Shown in pieces: positions 13,317 through 23,820 of a stretch of DNA of 43,704 bases. The stretch lies in NCBI GenBank assembly GCA_012840385.1, contig DULK01000043.1, positions 1 through 43,704 of the forward strand. Reading direction: 5' to 3'. This DNA comes from Syntrophomonadaceae bacterium. Its GTDB lineage: Bacteria > Bacillota > DSM-12270 > Thermacetogeniales > Thermacetogeniaceae. A program made the translations under genes and the position numbers. Position 1 is the first letter of the stretch. Each line of letters starts with the position of its first letter. The notes beneath the pieces are model-generated. The model was not told the DNA's origin. It searched no databases and was given only the letters and a program-made list of their open reading frames with translations.

Positions 13317-13774
13317 GTGACTCGCACGGCAACCTGGAACAGGCAAAGAGGGCCGTGTCCGAAATGGGAAAGATCGACTTGCTGATCCACGCCGGTGATT
13401 ACTATCACGACGCCCTCTACCTGTCAGATCACTTCGGCCTGGAGGTCAGGGCGGTCGTCGGCAACTGTGACCGCGGGGCAAAGGGCCCTGTCGAGGAATT
13501 ATTCGAGATAATGGGGCGCCGGATCTACCTGACGCACGGCCACCTCTACGGCGTAAAGCACGGACTGCTGAGGCTGCACTACCGCGCCCGGGAAGCCGGA
13601 GTGGATATCGTCATCTTCGGCCACACCCATGTGGCCGGGCAGGAGAATGTTGAGGGGATTCTCTTTCTCAACCCGGGAAGTGTGGTCTGGTCGCGCCTTG
13701 CGGAAAACGGCAGCTTCGCGGTGCTTGAGTTTGAGGGGCCGGAATACACCGTGGCGTTTTTTGAACTGCCCTGA
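13298..13774 (+). CDS. YfcE/MJ0936-type metallophosphoesterase
   Basis: Calcineurin-like phosphodiesterase of 158 aa. All metal-binding motifs are present: SDSHGN, HAGDYYHD, VGNCD, LTHGH and FGHTHV. Enzymes of this small class hydrolyse phosphodiesters; the natural substrate is usually unknown. It follows rdgB with a 19-base overlap, as in many Firmicutes. The stop codon at 13772-13774 lies at the very edge of a dispersed repeat element. Confidence 0.92.
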   Translation: MRVGILSDSHGNLEQAKRAVSEMGKIDLLIHAGDYYHDALYLSDHFGLEVRAVVGNCDRGAKGPVEELFEIMGRRIYLTHGHLYGVKHGLLRLHYRAREAGVDIVIFGHTHVAGQENVEGILFLNPGSVVWSRLAENGSFAVLEFEGPEYTVAFFELP

Positions 13775-13893
13775 AAATACATTCCGGTTTATCCTTGCGC
13801 CTGCTCCCATATTCCGGTTGAACTCGCCTTTAAAAACTCGAGCCGACCGGCTCCTATGACGCCGTCCATGGCGCATAGTCACCTGGCTCAATA
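13772..13893 (+). repeat. Dispersed repeat, copy A (left half only)
   Basis: Begins CTGAAAATACATTCCGGTTT and continues through ATCCTTGCGCCTGCTCCC, GAACTCGCC, CCGACCGGCTCCTATGACGC and GGCGCATAGTC. It matches the left half of the complete element at 31271-31475 and the start of the copy at the window end. The right half is missing, so this copy is truncated. It lies between the phosphoesterase gene and the tRNA promoter. Confidence 0.8.
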
Positions 13894-14182: not shown

Positions 14183-14259
<77 letters not shown>

Positions 14260-14270
14260 TGAGAAATCAA

Positions 14271-14299
14271 GTCCCGCAAGGATTTGCGGGACATCATTT
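14271..14299 (+). terminator. Terminator after the tRNA cluster
   Basis: Nine-bp stem GTCCCGCAA / TTGCGGGAC (14271-14279 with 14284-14292), 4-base loop, followed by ATCATTTTA. Because it lies inside the duplicated-end element, it may have come with that element. Confidence 0.7.
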
Positions 14300-14892: not shown

Positions 14893-14982
14893 ATGGCTAA
14901 ACGCGGGCAGGGCGAAGGGTCCATCCGCAAACGTAAGGAATTCCGTCAGTCGGGGGTTCGAATCCCTCCTGGGACGCCATGA
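14893..14982 (+). pseudogene. Integrase N-terminal remnant
   Basis: Reading from ATG 14893 gives MAKRGQGEGSIRKRKE, the typical first residues of tyrosine-type phage integrases (KRG-GEGSI-KRK pattern). It then runs into the tRNA-derived repeat and stops at 14980-14982 after 29 codons. The rest of the integrase is gone. This supports the view that the segment is a decayed integrative element. Confidence 0.65.
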
Positions 14983-14994
14983 GAATGCAAAAAT

Positions 14995-15038
14995 GGCAAG
15001 GGTTTGAGAATATAATCGCCCTTGCCGTTTTATTTTTT
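14995..15038. terminator. Terminator between element remnant and PH-domain gene
   Basis: Stem GGCAAGGG / CCCTTGCC (14995-15002 with 15019-15026) followed by GTTTTATTTTTT on the plus strand. On the minus strand the same stem is followed by ATTTTTGC, so it may act for the convergent minus-strand gene too. Confidence 0.75.
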
Positions 15039-15738: not shown

Positions 15739-18700
15739 ATGAGCATAGACCTTGATCAGTTTGCAGATGAGCAGGGGCGTGTTGTTGCGCAAAAATTGCT
15801 TGCTGCGGCCAGACAAGGCGGAACGGAGTCCGATTTCCGCAGGGAGGCGTCACGAATCCTTGAAGAAGCAGGGAAAGCCGCTGACCTTACGATCATACCC
15901 CGGGATGAATTCTCTGTTGCCCGCGGCCGGGTTGATTCTGTCTATAACCGCCTGATTTTAGAGTACAAGCGCCCGGGGATCATACGTCCTACCAATCAAG
16001 GTCGTTCTAACAGCGGAGTGATTCAGCAGGTAAAAGATTACATTAACGATGTGGCTGCACGGGAACGCCGGGAGGTACACCGGCTGGCAGGCGTTGCCCT
16101 TGATGGCTTCCATTTTATTTTTGTCCGACGTGTCGGTGATGGCTGGTCGGTAGACGATCCTGTTCCCGTCACCCCGGCTTCTACAGCTCGTTTCTTACGA
16201 TTGCTGTTTTCTCTTTCAACAGGGGCTGCCCTTGTCCCTGAAAACCTGATAGAAGATTTCGGGCCCCTCACATGGCGTGCCCAACGGTCCGTTAAGGCTT
16301 TTTACAGGGCCATCCACAGCAGCAGACATCCTCTGGTTGCAAAGCTTTACGAACAGTGGAAGCTCTTTTACAGCGAAGTAACGGATTACCGGGAATGGTC
16401 GGCGCGCATTGACAGTAAAAATGAATTCCGTAGCTTTGTAAGAGGGATGGACCTGGATCCGGAATATACCGAGCCTCCCAAAATCTTTTTTGCCATCCAT
16501 ACCTATTACGCCCTCCTGATCAAACTGATTGCGACCCTTGCTGCTTCACGGTTTGCAGGGGATGCACAAGATTTCCTATCCCATCTGGCATCGAAAACCG
16601 GAGATAGCCTGAGAGAAGCCTTAGCGGAAATGGAAAGGGGAGGCCTTTTCCGGGAATACGGGATCCGCAATTTCCTTGAGGGGGATTTTTTCGGGTGGTA
16701 TTTGGCGGCCTGGAATAATGATATTGAAGCAGCAGTAGGTCAGCTGATCCAGCGTCTCGCCGAGTACGATCCGGGCGCACTTGAGCTGGCCCCGGAAAAT
16801 GCCCGTGACCTGTTAAAAAAGCTTTATCACAATCTTTTACCTCGTGAGATACGCCATACTCTTGGTGAGTATTATACCCCGGACTGGCTGGCCGACAGAC
16901 TGATCAGGGTGACACTGGGCACGGCCGATCTGGGCAATGCTGCAAAGCGTGTGCTCGATCCTGCATGCGGCTCGGGTACCTTTCTGGTTCTTCTAATTAA
17001 GCATATCCGGGAACGTGCGACACGGAACAAAAAGGACCCGGCGGAAACACTAGAGTTAATCCTGAAAAACATAGTGGGGATCGACCTCAATCCGCTGGCC
17101 GTGATCGCGGCCAGGACCAACTATTTGCTGGCTCTAGGTGATCTGTTGAAATACAGAAAAGGGGACATCGACATCCCGGTTTACCAGGCGGACTCCATTT
17201 TAACCCCTTCGCGGGGGACAGGGCTTTTCGACGGCGATGTTTATCCTCTCAAGACCTCTGTGGGTGAGTTCCGCATCCCTGCTTTATTTGCGGAACGTGA
17301 AAAGATGGACGTGCTTGCCAATGTCCTGGATGAGGCAGTGGAGTCGGGCATCGGTGAGGAAGCATTTATTGCGAGACTTGAGGGACCTGCCGGGCTGGAT
17401 CCTGAGGAAATTGAAGCCGTAAGGGACGATCTGGTTGCCCTCTACAGGCAACTGCGTGCCCTTCACGAACAGGGACTGGATGGAGTGTGGGCGAGGATTA
17501 TAAAGAACGCCTTTACCCCGCTTTTCCTCGAGCCCTGCCACTACATCGTCGGCAATCCCCCGTGGGTCAACTGGGAGAACCTTCCCGACGACTACCGCAC
17601 GCAGATACGCAACCTTTTCGAACATTACGGGCTTTTCCCGCACGGCGGCATGGATACGATTCTCGGCAAGGGGAAAAAGGACATCTCCATGCTGATGACC
17701 TACGTGGCCGTTGATAAGTACCTGAGGCGTGGGGGGAAACTGGGTTTTGTCATTACCCAGAGCGTCTTCAAAACATCCGGGGCGGGGCAGGGTTTCCGGC
17801 GGTTCCTGCTTCCGGATGGGACTCCCTTCGGGCCGCTGGTGGTGGAAGACATGGTAAAACTGAATCCCTTTGAAGGGGCAACGAACAGAACGGCGGTAGC
17901 CGTTTTTTCGAAAGGACGCGGGATTCAGTACCCTGTCACCTATACCTACTGGAAGAAGCGGGCTACCGGTCGGGGGAGCAGCATCGGCTTCGATACCCCC
18001 TACGAAGAGGTGACCGGAGAAAAGATCACCTTTCATCAATGGTATGCGGAACCGGTGAACAGGTCGGATGCCACCTCCGCCTGGTTGACCGCCCGGCAGA
18101 AGGCGCTCCAAGCCCTGCATAAGGTGATTGGAAATTCGCCATACTCTGCTCACGAAGGGGCTAATACCGGTGGTGCCAACGGCATTTACTGGGTGGAAGT
18201 CACCGGCCGGAGACCCGGCGGGCTTGTAATAATCTCAAACGTAACAGAGGGAGCAAGAAGGAATGTGCATAGCACCCAGGCCGCGGTTGAACCCGATCTC
18301 CTGTACCCCCTGCTGCGGGGGAGAGATGTCAAGCGCTGGTCGGCGATACCCTCTGCGCATATTTTGATGACACAGGATCCCGAGACCCGAATTGGAATTA
18401 ACGAAGAGTTCATGAAAAACAGACATCCCAAAACATATGCGTACTTAAAAAGATCAGAAACCATATTAAGGGCGAGAAGAACTCAAGCAATTCGCCGTTT
18501 AATGGAACGGGGGCCATTCTATTCGATTTTTGGAGTAGGTAAATATACATTTGCACCGTGGAAGGTTGTATGGCGGGAAGTTGCGAATGAGCTCGATGCT
18601 GCAGTGATTGGAGAGCAAGATGTTTTTGGAACAAAAAAATCTGTTGTTCCTGATCATACCTGTGTGCTGGTTGCATGTGACGTTAGAGAGGAAGCCCATT

Positions 18701-18993
18701 ATATATGTGCTATTATTAATTCCGCTCCAGCCAGACTGGCCATAAGAAATTATATTGTTTTACACCCGGATCCCCATATACTAAACAACGTTAACATTCC
18801 TAAGTATTCTCCCAGAGATAATATTCACCTTCACCTTGCACACCTCTCGGAGGCAGCACACCAGGCTGCTGCCGGTGGCAACGAAGCTGAGGTTCAGAGA
18901 ATAGAAGCAGAAATTGACTATTTCGCCGCGCAGCTTTGGGGATTAACCGAACAAGAGCTATCCGATATTAAACAATCCCTCGAGGAGGCTTGA
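15739..18993 (+). CDS. Nuclease-methyltransferase fusion (type IIG-like)
   Basis: Large protein of 1084 aa. The N-terminus resembles a PD-(D/E)xK nuclease of HsdR type: D66 in GRVDSVYNR, E75-x-K77 in LEYKRPG, and a Q97-x3-Y101 motif. The centre is an adenine-type DNA methyltransferase: motif X GEYYTP, motif I DPACGSGTF near 407, motif II GIDLNPLA and motif IV NPPW at 606-609. The last ~400 residues should hold the target-recognition domain. Such fusions both cut and methylate, as in Eco57I-type enzymes. It is the first gene of a four-gene set; only 2 bases separate its stop from the NurA-like ATG. The part from about 18370 to 18840 is visibly richer in A and T than the flanks. The ATG follows a GAAAGGATG stretch. 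BREX PglX is a more distant alternative. Confidence 0.85.
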   Translation: MSIDLDQFADEQGRVVAQKLLAAARQGGTESDFRREASRILEEAGKAADLTIIPRDEFSVARGRVDSVYNRLILEYKRPGIIRPTNQGRSNSGVIQQVKDYINDVAARERREVHRLAGVALDGFHFIFVRRVGDGWSVDDPVPVTPASTARFLRLLFSLSTGAALVPENLIEDFGPLTWRAQRSVKAFYRAIHSSRHPLVAKLYEQWKLFYSEVTDYREWSARIDSKNEFRSFVRGMDLDPEYTEPPKIFFAIHTYYALLIKLIATLAASRFAGDAQDFLSHLASKTGDSLREALAEMERGGLFREYGIRNFLEGDFFGWYLAAWNNDIEAAVGQLIQRLAEYDPGALELAPENARDLLKKLYHNLLPREIRHTLGEYYTPDWLADRLIRVTLGTADLGNAAKRVLDPACGSGTFLVLLIKHIRERATRNKKDPAETLELILKNIVGIDLNPLAVIAARTNYLLALGDLLKYRKGDIDIPVYQADSILTPSRGTGLFDGDVYPLKTSVGEFRIPALFAEREKMDVLANVLDEAVESGIGEEAFIARLEGPAGLDPEEIEAVRDDLVALYRQLRALHEQGLDGVWARIIKNAFTPLFLEPCHYIVGNPPWVNWENLPDDYRTQIRNLFEHYGLFPHGGMDTILGKGKKDISMLMTYVAVDKYLRRGGKLGFVITQSVFKTSGAGQGFRRFLLPDGTPFGPLVVEDMVKLNPFEGATNRTAVAVFSKGRGIQYPVTYTYWKKRATGRGSSIGFDTPYEEVTGEKITFHQWYAEPVNRSDATSAWLTARQKALQALHKVIGNSPYSAHEGANTGGANGIYWVEVTGRRPGGLVIISNVTEGARRNVHSTQAAVEPDLLYPLLRGRDVKRWSAIPSAHILMTQDPETRIGINEEFMKNRHPKTYAYLKRSETILRARRTQAIRRLMERGPFYSIFGVGKYTFAPWKVVWREVANELDAAVIGEQDVFGTKKSVVPDHTCVLVACDVREEAHYICAIINSAPARLAIRNYIVLHPDPHILNNVNIPKYSPRDNIHLHLAHLSEAAHQAAAGGNEAEVQRIEAEIDYFAAQLWGLTEQELSDIKQSLEEA

Positions 18994-18995
18994 TC

Positions 18996-20117
18996 ATGCG
19001 CAATCCTTTTTCGGGTTTGAGACCGGCGCTGGAGGTGATCCTCCAGGAAGGAAGGGTACTCCCGGCAACAGGCCAGGCAATGGAGGACCTGGTGCGTCCG
19101 GATCACGAAGAGGTTATCGACCGCCTCCGCACAGGTGACGACAGTGTGTTTGATGTGATTTTGGAAAGACCAAACACCAAGCCATACGTCGAGGTGAAAC
19201 CGATACCGAGGACGGAGCGGCACCTGCTCCGCTATTTTTTAGACGGTTCGGCGCGCACCTTTTTCCTGGGGGATGTGGTGGAGGGCAACCGGCGCAGCCC
19301 CATCCATGTTTCCCAGATTGGCGCTGTGGCAGTATACCGCATGGATAACGGCCGGATTAAAGTGGCACAGTCAAAGCACCAGATTGTGTTGATGATGGAC
19401 AAACAGGCGGTATCTTTCGGGGATAGGGTAGAGGAACTGGTAAAAAACGCCGGCCCGCGGTTTGCCTTCCATGATATCATGGAGGATGACGGGGAAACGG
19501 AACGGACATCACCCGGTAAAGAGCCCCGTTCCCGTGCGGCGCACAAGGCGCATCACCTGATGTCAGGCCTTGAGGATGAGCTTGGCCGGGGGTTAGCGAG
19601 GCAAGATGGTCTATGGCTTGTCCTTGACGGCAGTTTAAGCAAAGATCTCTATAAATGGGAGTCCGTTCCGCAGTTCTTCGGTGTGACCAAGTCGTTTAAC
19701 CGCCAACCGTTATTTAAACTTCCGGGCAGCCGGGGTGGACGGGTGGTGAACTTATACGATCTCCTGGTTGACCTACCCTTTTCCGCCAGGACCTGCGCCT
19801 TTTCAGCCAGATCAGGTAAAATGGCGGTCTGGTACGTCCGCATCCGGGAACAGAAGCATCTTGATTACCCGCTGATGGGAGTCGTCAAGGTGGAGTTTCC
19901 CAATTTCAGCACCGATGCTGTGCCGTCTGAGTTGATCGATGAGATTTCCGGAGCGCTTGTGGCGGAGCGCCAGGTAGCACCGCACGGCAAGGACAGCAGG
20001 TGGCACGCCCATCTTTATGCCATTTATCTGGCCGAGCAGGCGGTAAAAAATGGGTTTATTTCTACAGAGGCCCTGAAGGCAGGTCTGAAGTGGCCTATGG
20101 GAATCCAAAGCATTTAA
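18996..20117 (+). CDS. NurA-like nuclease
   Basis: Protein of 373 aa that I read as a NurA-domain nuclease. It has two spaced Asp-Gly-Ser motifs, FLDGSART (D83) and LVLDGSLSKD (D211), followed by FFGVTKSF, and later VWYVRIREQ with a final His/Ala-rich helix (WHAHLYAIYLAEQAV). These correspond to the metal-binding acidic motifs and C-terminal features of NurA, a 5'-3' nuclease that works with HerA on DNA ends. Similarity is modest and the central 150 residues are not clearly assignable. ATG 18996 is preferred to TTG 18990, because it is correctly spaced from CGAGGAGG. The next gene encodes the expected HerA-type partner, which strengthens the call. Confidence 0.7.
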   Translation: MRNPFSGLRPALEVILQEGRVLPATGQAMEDLVRPDHEEVIDRLRTGDDSVFDVILERPNTKPYVEVKPIPRTERHLLRYFLDGSARTFFLGDVVEGNRRSPIHVSQIGAVAVYRMDNGRIKVAQSKHQIVLMMDKQAVSFGDRVEELVKNAGPRFAFHDIMEDDGETERTSPGKEPRSRAAHKAHHLMSGLEDELGRGLARQDGLWLVLDGSLSKDLYKWESVPQFFGVTKSFNRQPLFKLPGSRGGRVVNLYDLLVDLPFSARTCAFSARSGKMAVWYVRIREQKHLDYPLMGVVKVEFPNFSTDAVPSELIDEISGALVAERQVAPHGKDSRWHAHLYAIYLAEQAVKNGFISTEALKAGLKWPMGIQSI

Positions 20118-20140
20118 CCGTATAAAGGAGGTTAAGGATC

Positions 20141-21898
20141 ATGCCGGACGAAACAATAAATGAAAAGATTCAAAAAGAAGAGCGCAGGGTAATCGGAAAG
20201 GCTTCCGCCACCGAGCGGGAACCGAATTCCTCGGAGAAGTTTTCCTTTTGGCTAGCTGCAGACGAAATTGCTAATCCTTTTGATATTGTTGAAGCCGATC
20301 AAATGGCTAATACCCGTACCTTTGGACTGGTGACAAATATCAAACAGGTTACCGACGCCCCTTCTCATCTTTCCAACTATATTTCCAGCGATTTCGGCAG
20401 TACGGAGGCGTTACCCCAAACACCCCGCCAGGGGGTTAATGTGGCAGAGGCAAATGTGCTGGCGAACTATGATCCGGCCGAACCGAAACGCTACCCTATG
20501 GGTATCTATATGCCTGTACAGAATGAGTCCCCGATTCGTTTTGCCGACGAAGAAGGTATCCATGTGGCCTTGGGTATTGACAAGATGTTCGAGTATGAGC
20601 GGGAACATAAAGAAAAGATTACCATCCCGGCCGGGCTGATCCAAATGTCGAACGGCACCAGGGCCAGGGTTTTTCTGGACAAGAGGTATGTTTTGGGGCC
20701 GGAGGGAGCACACATCAATATTTCCGGGATATCCGGTCTGGCCACGAAGACATCTTATGCCATGTTTCTGATTCAATCGATTTTACAATCGGTCGGTTCT
20801 AAGGACATTGCCGTGATCTTGCTAAACGTCAAACAGAACGACCTGCTTGTGATAGATAAGCCGAGGAAGGGGAAGCCTGAAGAATACCAGATGTGGGATT
20901 ATCTCGGCCTTCATCCCAAGCCTTTTGAAAATGTACGCTATCTGCTTCCCTGGGGAAAACAGACGCAAACCACCGGTTTGCCGAACTGTTTCGGTGAACC
21001 GCCTGATCAGTTTCAGATATATGCATATTCTCTCGAGGATGTCATCGGCAGCCGGGCTAAGCCGGGTCCCGGTATCGGCCTCCTGATCAGGGTACCAGAC
21101 CCTTGGGATACACTGGGGGCCCTTATCGGGGAGATCCAGCAAGGGGTTATGAACGGTGATAAGGCCTGGCAGAATGTTCGAACCTGGTCAAACCTGCTCA
21201 ACGGGCCACCCCTGATGGATAAAGGTATCCCTCAGGCATACAGACAGGTTACGGCTTCCTCGGTGGGGCGGTTTATCCGTATCCTCCGGCGCGTCGTGGT
21301 GAACCGCCAATCGGGTATCTTTGTCGAACAAAGAGCAGCACGCCGGGCGGTTAACCTTGGCGAGGAAATCAGAAAAATCCAGGGTGGACAGACGATTGTG
21401 GTTGATATAGCTAAACTGACCGATGAAGAGCGGGCGCTGGTATTCGGCCACATTATCCAGGAGGTTTATGATATGTACGCCGAGGCTACCGTAGATGATC
21501 GGGGTGAACTTCCAAAGAGAATTATCATCTTTGTTGACGAACTGAATAAATACGCTCCGGCCAGGCGTGGTGAGGGGGAATCGTCGATCATCGAGTACGT
21601 GCTGGACATCGCCGCTCGCGGCCGGTCGCTGGGGGTTGTCCTGATTTCCGCGGAACAGTTTATGAGTGAGGTTCATCCGCAGGTTGCAGGCAACTGCGCC
21701 ACGAAAGTCATCGGTCGCAGCGATTCCTCGGAGTTGTCTGACCCAGCTTACAGGTTTATCTCCCAGGATGTGAAAGCGCATTTAACACGGCTGGAAAAAG
21801 GGGAACTCCTGCTTACCCATCCAATATACCGACAGCCTGTAAAAATTGAGTTCCCGATGCCTGCCTATCAGGCTATAGGACATGAGCGTTTGGGGTAA
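20141..21898 (+). CDS. HerA/FtsK-superfamily ATPase
   Basis: ATPase of 585 aa in the HerA group, expected to form a hexameric DNA translocase with the NurA-like protein. The N-terminal ~190 residues form a barrel-like region (ending KRYVLGPEGAHINISG). The phosphate-binding loop is unusual: GISGLATKTS at 196-205, one residue off the GxxGxGKS spacing. The Walker B strand is clear, IIIFVDELNKYAP with D466/E467, followed by DIAARGRSLGVVLISAEQF, a sensor-like segment, and CATKVIGRSDSSEL. These last motifs are typical of HerA/VirB4-like ATPases. The start follows ATAAAGGAGG. The gene lies 23 bases after the NurA-like gene and 8 bases before the second methyltransferase. Confidence 0.8.
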   Translation: MPDETINEKIQKEERRVIGKASATEREPNSSEKFSFWLAADEIANPFDIVEADQMANTRTFGLVTNIKQVTDAPSHLSNYISSDFGSTEALPQTPRQGVNVAEANVLANYDPAEPKRYPMGIYMPVQNESPIRFADEEGIHVALGIDKMFEYEREHKEKITIPAGLIQMSNGTRARVFLDKRYVLGPEGAHINISGISGLATKTSYAMFLIQSILQSVGSKDIAVILLNVKQNDLLVIDKPRKGKPEEYQMWDYLGLHPKPFENVRYLLPWGKQTQTTGLPNCFGEPPDQFQIYAYSLEDVIGSRAKPGPGIGLLIRVPDPWDTLGALIGEIQQGVMNGDKAWQNVRTWSNLLNGPPLMDKGIPQAYRQVTASSVGRFIRILRRVVVNRQSGIFVEQRAARRAVNLGEEIRKIQGGQTIVVDIAKLTDEERALVFGHIIQEVYDMYAEATVDDRGELPKRIIIFVDELNKYAPARRGEGESSIIEYVLDIAARGRSLGVVLISAEQFMSEVHPQVAGNCATKVIGRSDSSELSDPAYRFISQDVKAHLTRLEKGELLLTHPIYRQPVKIEFPMPAYQAIGHERLG

Positions 21899-21906
21899 TC
21901 GGAAAG

Positions 21907-23136
21907 ATGTTGAATTATGCAGTTGAGGAAAGAACAGAATGGCGCCGGTGGGTAACGCCGAAGAACCTGCATGAAAAACCGGTTCACCGCTGGTTTGTTT
22001 TTCCCCACAGCTTTACCAGCGAACTTGTGCATGCACTGATTGATGAGTGGGGATTGGACCGGCGTGACCGCATCCTTGATCCCTTTGTAGGGGCCGGGAC
22101 GACTTTACTGGCGGCTAAAGAGAAGGGAGTACCGGCTACGGGGTATGACCTTTTGCCTCTGTCGATCCTTGCGGCGAACACCAAAGTGGCTAATTATAAC
22201 TTACTGCGTCTGGAAAGAGGGTGGGAGAGTCTTAAAGGAGCATTAAAACCAAATGAATGGCTTGAGCCCGCAAAGAGATATCCTGAACTGGTGCAAAAGG
22301 CCCTACCGGGGAGAATGCTGGCGGCATTTGACGCGATTGCCGGGAAGATTGCACATCTTTCATGTTCAAAAGAGGAGAGGAATTTCTTTCGCCTGGCCTT
22401 GCTGGCCATTATTCCTCAATTTAGCCATGCTGTCGCTACAGGCGGTTGGCTGAAATGGATCGAACCCAAGATCGATGTGGAGTTCCTGCCGGAAGCCTTT
22501 AAGGGGCGGTTAGAAATGATGCTTGGGGATCTTTATCAGGTAAAGTTGCCGCGCCGGGCGGAGTGGCAGGCACGGCAGGCCGATGCCAGGTATTTGCCCG
22601 ATAATGATGAAACTTATTCGGCAGTTATAACATCACCTCCGTATCCCAACCGTCATGACTATACGAGGGTTTTTGGCGTGGAGTTAATGTTTGATTTTTT
22701 GAACTGGGAAGATACCCGGAGAATTCGCTACCAAAGCATCCAGTCGCACCCCGAAGCTCATCCTTTAAGGCCGGAAACTAAGGAATACAGGCGACCGGAA
22801 ATGCTTAAAAAAGTTATCGAAGAGCTTAACGAGGTGGCAAAGGATATCCGCATCCCGGCAATGATTGATGGCTATTTCTTGGATATTTATATCTGCCTCC
22901 GGGAAATGATGCGTGTTTGCAAATCCGGAGCAAGAATCGCACTTGTGGTGGGTAATGCGCAATACTATGGTTTACCGCTCCCGGTTGATGAACTTACCGC
23001 AGAACTGGGTGAACAAATCGGCCTTACCTGCGATAAGATAGTGGCGGTTCGCTACCGCGGGAATAGTGCCCAACAAATGGGAAAATACGGGCGCAACCCC
23101 TCAAGGGAAAGCGTAGTGATCTTCCGTAAGAAGTAA
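21907..23136 (+). CDS. DNA amino-methyltransferase (TSPPY type)
   Basis: Protein of 409 aa with SAM-binding motif I DPFVGAGTT (D58) and catalytic motif IV TSPPY (242-246). The TSPPY form is common among N4-cytosine and some N6-adenine enzymes. Motif I comes first and about 180 residues separate it from motif IV, where a target-recognition region may lie. The C-terminus (RIALVVGNAQYYG, VRYRGNSAQQMGKYGR, ESVVIFRK) is typical of this subgroup. It follows the HerA gene by 8 bases. Having two methyltransferases with one nuclease fusion and a NurA-HerA pair suggests that the set marks self DNA at two sites or strands. Confidence 0.87.
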   Translation: MLNYAVEERTEWRRWVTPKNLHEKPVHRWFVFPHSFTSELVHALIDEWGLDRRDRILDPFVGAGTTLLAAKEKGVPATGYDLLPLSILAANTKVANYNLLRLERGWESLKGALKPNEWLEPAKRYPELVQKALPGRMLAAFDAIAGKIAHLSCSKEERNFFRLALLAIIPQFSHAVATGGWLKWIEPKIDVEFLPEAFKGRLEMMLGDLYQVKLPRRAEWQARQADARYLPDNDETYSAVITSPPYPNRHDYTRVFGVELMFDFLNWEDTRRIRYQSIQSHPEAHPLRPETKEYRRPEMLKKVIEELNEVAKDIRIPAMIDGYFLDIYICLREMMRVCKSGARIALVVGNAQYYGLPLPVDELTAELGEQIGLTCDKIVAVRYRGNSAQQMGKYGRNPSRESVVIFRKK

Positions 23137-23172: not shown

Positions 23173-23391
23173 ATGGCCAATACCAATATATTGAAAACTG
23201 AGATTGAAGAAGCGTTAATCCAGAGTTTTGTGAATAAATACACCGGTGTAAGAATTCTGGATCTATCAACAAGAGAAAAGATCTATGTATTTCAAGGTAC
23301 GGAACCTGATCTGGTGGGAGTGAATAGTGAGAATTTAACATTATACTTAGGCGAGATTACCACTTCGGGTTACCTGGGACAAAGGCATTAG
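23173..23391 (+). pseudogene. Truncated PD-(D/E)xK-like nuclease fragment
   Basis: Reading frame of 72 aa with a reasonable start (after a TTAAGAGGTTATGGGGT stretch). It carries an E...PDLVG...LYLGEIT pattern like the metal site of PD-(D/E)xK nucleases and then stops at LGQRH. A second short frame (23424-23513, 29 codons, LPEETKHIMIDVLEKSQKEM) follows. Together they look like the broken start and middle of a restriction-related gene. A small intact protein is possible but less likely. Confidence 0.45.
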
Positions 23392-23559
23392 GATACCGCA
23401 GGCGGTTGTTCCAAACGGGGTATATGATATTGGATGAACTCTATTTACCGGAAGAAACGAAGCATATAATGATCGATGTTTTGGAGAAATCCCAAAAAGA
23501 GATGAAGAAATAAGACTGCGGTATGAAGTGAAAATTTTGCGAATCCGTTTTGACTGCCC

Positions 23560-23820
23560 GAGATTGTTTTTGAGCTCAGGCCCGGTATCTTTAAAAGGTT
23601 ATGTGAGGATGCCCAGAGAGATCCGGACAAAAATTACTATTTGATTTTTGATGAAATTAACCGGGGGGATATATCCCGGATATTCGGTGAGCTGATTACG
23701 GTTATCGAAGCCGGAAAAAGAGGAAAACCGATGCTGCTTCCTTTATCCGGGCAGGTGTTCAGCGTCCCCTTTCCATCTGCAGGACATCAAGCTTGGCTTC
23801 AATTCGGCAACCGGGCTTAG
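23560..23820 (+). pseudogene. McrB-type AAA+ ATPase remnant
   Basis: A stretch of 86 codons without a start encodes FELRPGIFKRLCEDAQ, NYYLIFDEINRGDISRIFGE and LITVIEAGKRG, ending LPLSGQVFSVPF before the match is lost. The DEINRGDISRIFGEL block is diagnostic of the Walker B region of McrB-family GTPase/ATPases of type IV restriction. The upstream P-loop part and the downstream sensor part are both absent. It is a decayed restriction gene at the downstream edge of the defence operon. Confidence 0.8.

Follow-up and report, generated by a model that had tools for sequence, protein, structure and literature searches.

A probable tdtA-type operon pairing a type IIG restriction enzyme with NurA and HerA in a Bacillota genome

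We propose that four adjacent genes in a Syntrophomonadaceae genome form a tdtA-type operon, the same module as the operon that serves DNA donation (transjugation) in Thermus, with a cut-and-pump mechanism. We put the probability of this reading at roughly 65%. The genes encode a type IIG restriction endonuclease-methyltransferase (G1), a NurA nuclease (G2), a HerA/FtsK-type ATPase resembling TdtA (G3) and a second DNA methyltransferase (G4), and lie in a stretch of 43,704 nucleotides that was analyzed as a whole (hereafter, the window). The four-gene operon is real, conserved and functional-looking; chance is excluded as the source of the arrangement, since the identical order recurs in genomes independent of one another and on a viral contig.

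Results

All four open reading frames, at positions 15,739–23,136, are intact and co-directional on the + strand. G1 (15,739–18,993) encodes 1084 amino acids, and G2 (18,990–20,117) encodes 375 amino acids from a TTG codon or 373 from the ATG at 18,996; G3 (20,141–21,898) and G4 (21,907–23,136) encode 585 and 409 amino acids. Counted from the ATG of G2, the genes are separated by 2, 23 and 8 bases, in line with the preliminary description. PADLOC, Pfam, profile searches and the predicted fold also bore out its assignment of the components: a nuclease fused to a methylase, NurA, HerA, and a methylase with TSPPY. Scans for promoters and terminators performed no better on this sequence than on shuffles.

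The full length of G1 is covered by a match to the PADLOC profile REase_MTase_IIG (1211 bits), and in Pfam the protein matches the N6_Mtase/Eco57I family. Alignments place a nuclease motif at D66-x8-E75-x-K77 (D-ExK), QxKxY at residues 97–101, the SAM motif DPACGSG at 407–413, NPPW at 606–609, and a variable target-recognition domain at about residues 840–1020. Residues 1–214 have no Pfam match and a poor predicted model (pLDDT 56), and a PD-(D/E)xK nuclease fold is assigned to this N-terminus provisionally, from the motif and the literature. In TspDTI, the predicted catalytic residues are D66, E75 and E77, with lysine at the last position (D-ExK) noted in other homologues (PMC3384240), and the G1 residues D66, E75 and K77 carry the same numbers. 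With the type IIG/IIC enzymes of the TspDTI subfamily (TspDTI, TthHB27I/Tth111II, TsoI), G1 shares a length of about 1100 amino acids, D66 and E75, DPACGSG, NPPW, and a domain order of (in G1 putative) nuclease, helical linker, m6A methylase and target-recognition domain; it has K77 in place of the E77 of TspDTI. At the related loci L019, L020, L021 and L031 the motif is D-ExE, the form found in Thermus. The short flanks available to the 2012 TspDTI paper had no similarity to methylases or DNA-binding proteins. Solitary nuclease-less IIG relatives of 765–851 amino acids, unlinked to NurA-HerA, occur at loci L046, L047, L048, L049, L050 and L051.

Identification of G2 as NurA did not come by the route proposed in the preliminary description, a search with the Pfam model PF09376, which failed to match G2 even at E = 10 and matched only two of 12 family members (best E = 0.022). 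This failure tests the reach of the Pfam model and is not a defining biological feature; because of it, NurA identity was taken from a family profile and the fold. The sole PDB match of the 12-member profile was Deinococcus radiodurans NurA (7f6d, E = 1.2 × 10−4). NurA structures also ranked first against the AlphaFold model (pLDDT 74; 7f6d, E = 2.7 × 10−11), and the only matches below E = 0.001 were D. radiodurans NurA, the NurA-like TM1739 and two entries for Thermococcus kodakarensis NurA. D85, E195, D213, H341 and Y343 are conserved without exception in the 12 relatives, and the gene for the HerA partner lies directly downstream. The HerA-NurA complexes of D. radiodurans (7F6D) and T. kodakarensis (9X1L) share fold and partnership with G2 and G3, but are distant from them in sequence (17% identity for NurA in structural alignment), and no coupling of either complex to a restriction enzyme is known. 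Among predicted structures of viral proteins, NurA found no match.

The proposed HerA identity of the 585-amino-acid G3 was upheld by its profile match to D. radiodurans HerA (PDB 7f6d, E = 1.8 × 10−65). In the alignment, G3 has an unusual Walker A motif, GISGLATKTS, likewise atypical in D. radiodurans HerA (GISGVATKTS), a Walker B motif IIIFVDELNKYA, and D466/E467 and the arginine finger R493, which are invariant in 12 relatives. Phage and plasmid searches for G3 returned distant relatives only. Marinitoga camini virus 1 carries adjacent genes for a NurA-like protein and a HerA protein 34% identical to G3 (L039:4933–7641). G4 matches Pfam N6_N4_Mtase and PADLOC MTase_II, an N4/N6 amino-methylase assignment with the aligned motifs DPFVGAGTT and TSPPYPNRHDY.

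The operon has no whole-system match in PADLOC, in agreement with the preliminary description, which had set it apart from DISARM, BREX, Dnd and HerA-DUF4297/Sir2. Markers of DISARM (DrmA/B), BREX (PglZ/BrxC), Dnd (DndFGH) and MADS (the mad set) are absent from the four proteins, which show partial methylase- or HerA-domain matches only. HerA-DUF4297, Sir2-HerA, DndFGH/HerA capture, MADS (mad8), DISARM and BREX share with the operon a HerA-family ATPase or a DNA methylase in a multi-gene defence setting, but use other nucleases and partners.

The further suggestion that the layout was undescribed did not survive comparison with the integrative element ICETh1 of Thermus thermophilus HB27, whose tdtA operon matches it in the four families, in their order and, very nearly, in their sizes (PMC5365140). 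There, TTC1877 encodes the IIG enzyme TthHB27I/Tth111II (1106 amino acids), which belongs to the TspDTI subfamily, TTC1878 a NurA-like protein (377), TTC1879 the HerA/FtsK protein TdtA (568) and TTC1880 a pfam01555 N4/N6 methylase (410), and RT-PCR detected the four on one transcript (PMC5365140). The window operon shares their common strand, with products of 1084, 375, 585 and 409 amino acids; the gene spacing is 4, 2 and −4 in Thermus vs 2, 23 and 8 in the window, and the nuclease motif is D-ExE in Thermus vs D-ExK in G1. Orthology to TTC1877–TTC1880 is suggested by order, sizes, families and motifs rather than by protein alignment. We conclude that the operon is a known module in a new bacterial home, Bacillota, rather than an unknown defence system.

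The four genes recur in this order at seven further loci, so the conserved co-occurrence that the preliminary description had asked about is real. Six of these came from a scan of genome contigs and from 398 sampled genomes of the host's phylum: L003 in Moorella sulfitireducens, L004 in a Desulfobacca MAG, L005 in an 'Armatimonadetes' MAG, L026 in genome G385, L027 in genome G143 (of the same family as the window), and L019 in genome G257 (40–55% identity). The seventh is on a viral contig (L031/L036). In a same-genus genome (G271, locus L028) a decayed copy has its IIG gene shortened and split in two and its HerA gene shortened. At two loci (L020:4610–10753 and L021:8747–17525), NurA, HerA and IIG genes are followed by a DUF3800 gene and a B12-binding radical-SAM gene, and G4 is lacking; integrase-like ORFs and a tRNA-Pro are near L020. 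Directly upstream of the L027 operon are genes for an Hsp70-TPR protein and a UvrD/GajB-like helicase (L027:13626–17290).

This recurrence bears on two rival explanations. One is that G2 and G3 are the cell's own end-processing pair for DNA repair, with the methylases as accidental neighbours. HerA-NurA is known for end resection, but the four genes are found side by side in distantly related genomes, and the decayed same-genus copy shows that the set is dispensable. The genome moreover keeps a separate nurA-herA-sbcD-sbcC cluster (G000:C40; the usual Walker A, GGSGSGKS; the sbcD and sbcC labels were assigned by eye), and the HerA of this canonical cluster has only 29% identity to G3 over 102 amino acids. 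Because the genome carries this cluster of its own, the window NurA-HerA is not the cell's repair pair, and we rejected a repair role, to which we attach very little probability.

The other explanation is an ordinary type IIG restriction-modification system with NurA-HerA merely adjacent. G1 and G4 alone would form a conventional pair; Eco57I is an example of such an arrangement of a IIG enzyme plus a companion methylase. Linkage, however, points the other way: in the phylum sample, intact G1 at no less than 49% identity occurs in seven genomes, and NurA-HerA adjoins it in every one (7/7). G4, by contrast, is absent from L020 and L021, so the partner that stays with the IIG enzyme is NurA-HerA rather than G4. 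Backbone trees of all four genes also agree, recovering ((window, L027), L003) and placing L019 with L031, so that the module travels as a unit. Among more distant G1 relatives whose neighbourhoods were read, NurA-HerA is beside none of nine, and six of these are nuclease-less (765–851 amino acids). An ordinary IIG system is accordingly a highly improbable account of the locus.

While the other genes are co-inherited, the sequences indicate that the target-recognition domain of the IIG enzyme is exchanged between close relatives. G1 of the window is 82–100% identical to that of L027, its closest intact relative, through residues 61–840, falling to 50% and 38% at residues 901–1020, and in a tree of the recognition domain the window instead falls with L026 and L005 (support 0.96–0.97). 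G4 of the window is 88% identical to that of L027, at 83–92% throughout. Since the recognition domain differs and groups elsewhere whereas G4 is constant, IIG specificity has been exchanged without G4 following. This weakens the suggestion of the preliminary description that the nuclease reads a methylation status laid down by the second methylase, given that it is 88% identical to its L027 counterpart even where the IIG recognition domain differs sharply.

A related type of cassette, with the order NurA, HerA, HSP90-like ATPase and B12-binding radical-SAM protein and no restriction enzyme, was observed at L022, L023, L024, L032, L033, L034, L035, L055 and L056. The HSP90-like ATPases carry HATPase_c_3 in those profiled. 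They occur in Bacillota, in genomes from the same phylum as the Desulfobacca MAG, and on viral contigs, and several cassettes are beside integrase-like ORFs. The HSP90-like ATPase and radical-SAM genes of L024 have no PADLOC match, and we found no description of the cassette in the literature searched.

The window operon is downstream of a tRNA-Pro/Gly/Arg array identified with ARAGORN, in a region that looks like a worn mobile-element site, a putative integration scar. The tRNA-Arg(TCT) gene at 14,183–14,259 (+ strand), upstream of the operon, probably once served as an attachment site. A repeat search found 65 nt of its 3′ end at 14,222–14,286 (+ strand) and a second copy 720 bp on, at 14,942–15,006 (+ strand; 86% over 65 nt); the 28-nt core is exact, and none is expected by chance. 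By eye, an apparent cut-off integrase N-terminus, MAKRGQGEGSIRKRKE, at about 14,894–14,941 precedes the second copy, and a HicA-like frame between the copies appears to be frameshifted; a HicB-like antitoxin between them was matched by Pfam. Downstream of the operon, at 23,173–23,820, a frameshifted ORF and a McrB-like fragment were recognized by eye, and the ORF is longer and open in L028:5547–6065. There is no intact integrase near the operon in the window, and by eye no recognisable integrase near the chromosomal copies at L003, L005, L019, L026 and L027. An intergenic repeat at about 13,766–13,891 of the window has dozens of copies in the same-genus genomes G223 and G271.

Discussion

The tdtA-type reading draws on more than gene content. 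ICETh1 is a mobile element at a tRNA gene, and the window operon may once have had a similar setting; ICETh1, however, can excise and has its integrase intact at tRNA-Ile, whereas the window keeps only the tRNA-Arg repeat and an integrase-like fragment. The tRNA-Arg scar, the tRNA-Pro and integrase-like ORFs at L020, and the viral contig L031 would fit this reading.

We envisage that the TspDTI-like IIG enzyme would recognise a short asymmetric site through its exchangeable domain, methylate adenine, and nick or cut DNA with unmodified sites; TspDTI-family enzymes have been shown to methylate and to cut beside asymmetric sites. The cut or nick could then be the loading site for NurA-HerA: the HerA hexamer and NurA would engage the break and pump double-stranded DNA while NurA hydrolyses the strands, activities that have been shown for archaeal HerA-NurA, and the T. 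kodakarensis complex cleaves both strands of double-stranded DNA exonucleolytically (PMC12977600). The second methylase would add a separate mark and may not simply guard the IIG site. DNA would in the end be mobilised or exported, as in Thermus, or, if incoming, destroyed. The cut-then-degrade idea of the preliminary description is therefore mechanistically plausible; its label of 'defence operon', drawn from gene composition only, is a plausible hypothesis.

For the role of the operon in the window organism, we give DNA transfer a little under an even chance and restriction or defence the same, leaving only a small share for anything else. The only genetic data on the four-gene set, those from Thermus, favour DNA donation: loss of TdtA abolishes donation, loss of NurA costs 4–5 orders of magnitude and loss of the IIG enzyme about 3 (PMC5365140; PMC7767461), and the operon methylase matters little for donation (PMC7767461). 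The operon has genes for neither an export pore nor a mating partner, and ComEC is present in the genome but is widespread and hence proves little.

In the restriction scenario, the IIG enzyme would cut unmodified invading DNA, NurA-HerA would degrade it processively from the cut, and the methylases would protect the host. This suits the gene composition and the carriage of the operon on the viral contig L031, where it is beside a weak EVE-domain match. Two observations speak for it and against transfer: most chromosomal copies look like stand-alone restriction-type cassettes, set between ordinary genes, and the swapping of recognition domains among close relatives is what turnover of restriction specificity typically looks like. 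HerA-NurA degrades double-stranded DNA (PMC12977600), and other HerA partners are antiphage. Against restriction, the second methylase does not track IIG specificity, and few defence genes adjoin the operons, those seen being the frameshifted HicA with HicB and the McrB-like fragment in the window and the UvrD/GajB-like helicase at L027. Moreover, DNA donation is the role of the only operon with this layout that has been studied genetically, and the available part of PMC5365140 reports no defence test of it.

A broader and more doubtful proposal would make tdtA-type operons a DNA-cutting and pumping module that is widespread, moves horizontally, and outside Thermus both restricts and exports DNA; its restriction enzyme, whose recognition domain can be exchanged, would load NurA-HerA onto breaks. 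The wider NurA-HerA family would pair this engine with other loaders, an HSP90-like ATPase plus a B12 radical-SAM protein, which would form an undescribed system.

The gene set for DNA donation in Thermus would, on the tdtA-type reading, now be found also in Bacillota, a Desulfobacca MAG and a viral contig. The exchange of the specificity domain of the IIG enzyme, in which the second methylase does not take part, constrains models of host self-protection. It becomes a testable question whether the combination of a IIG enzyme with HerA-NurA is a weapon against incoming DNA, a DNA-sending device, or both.
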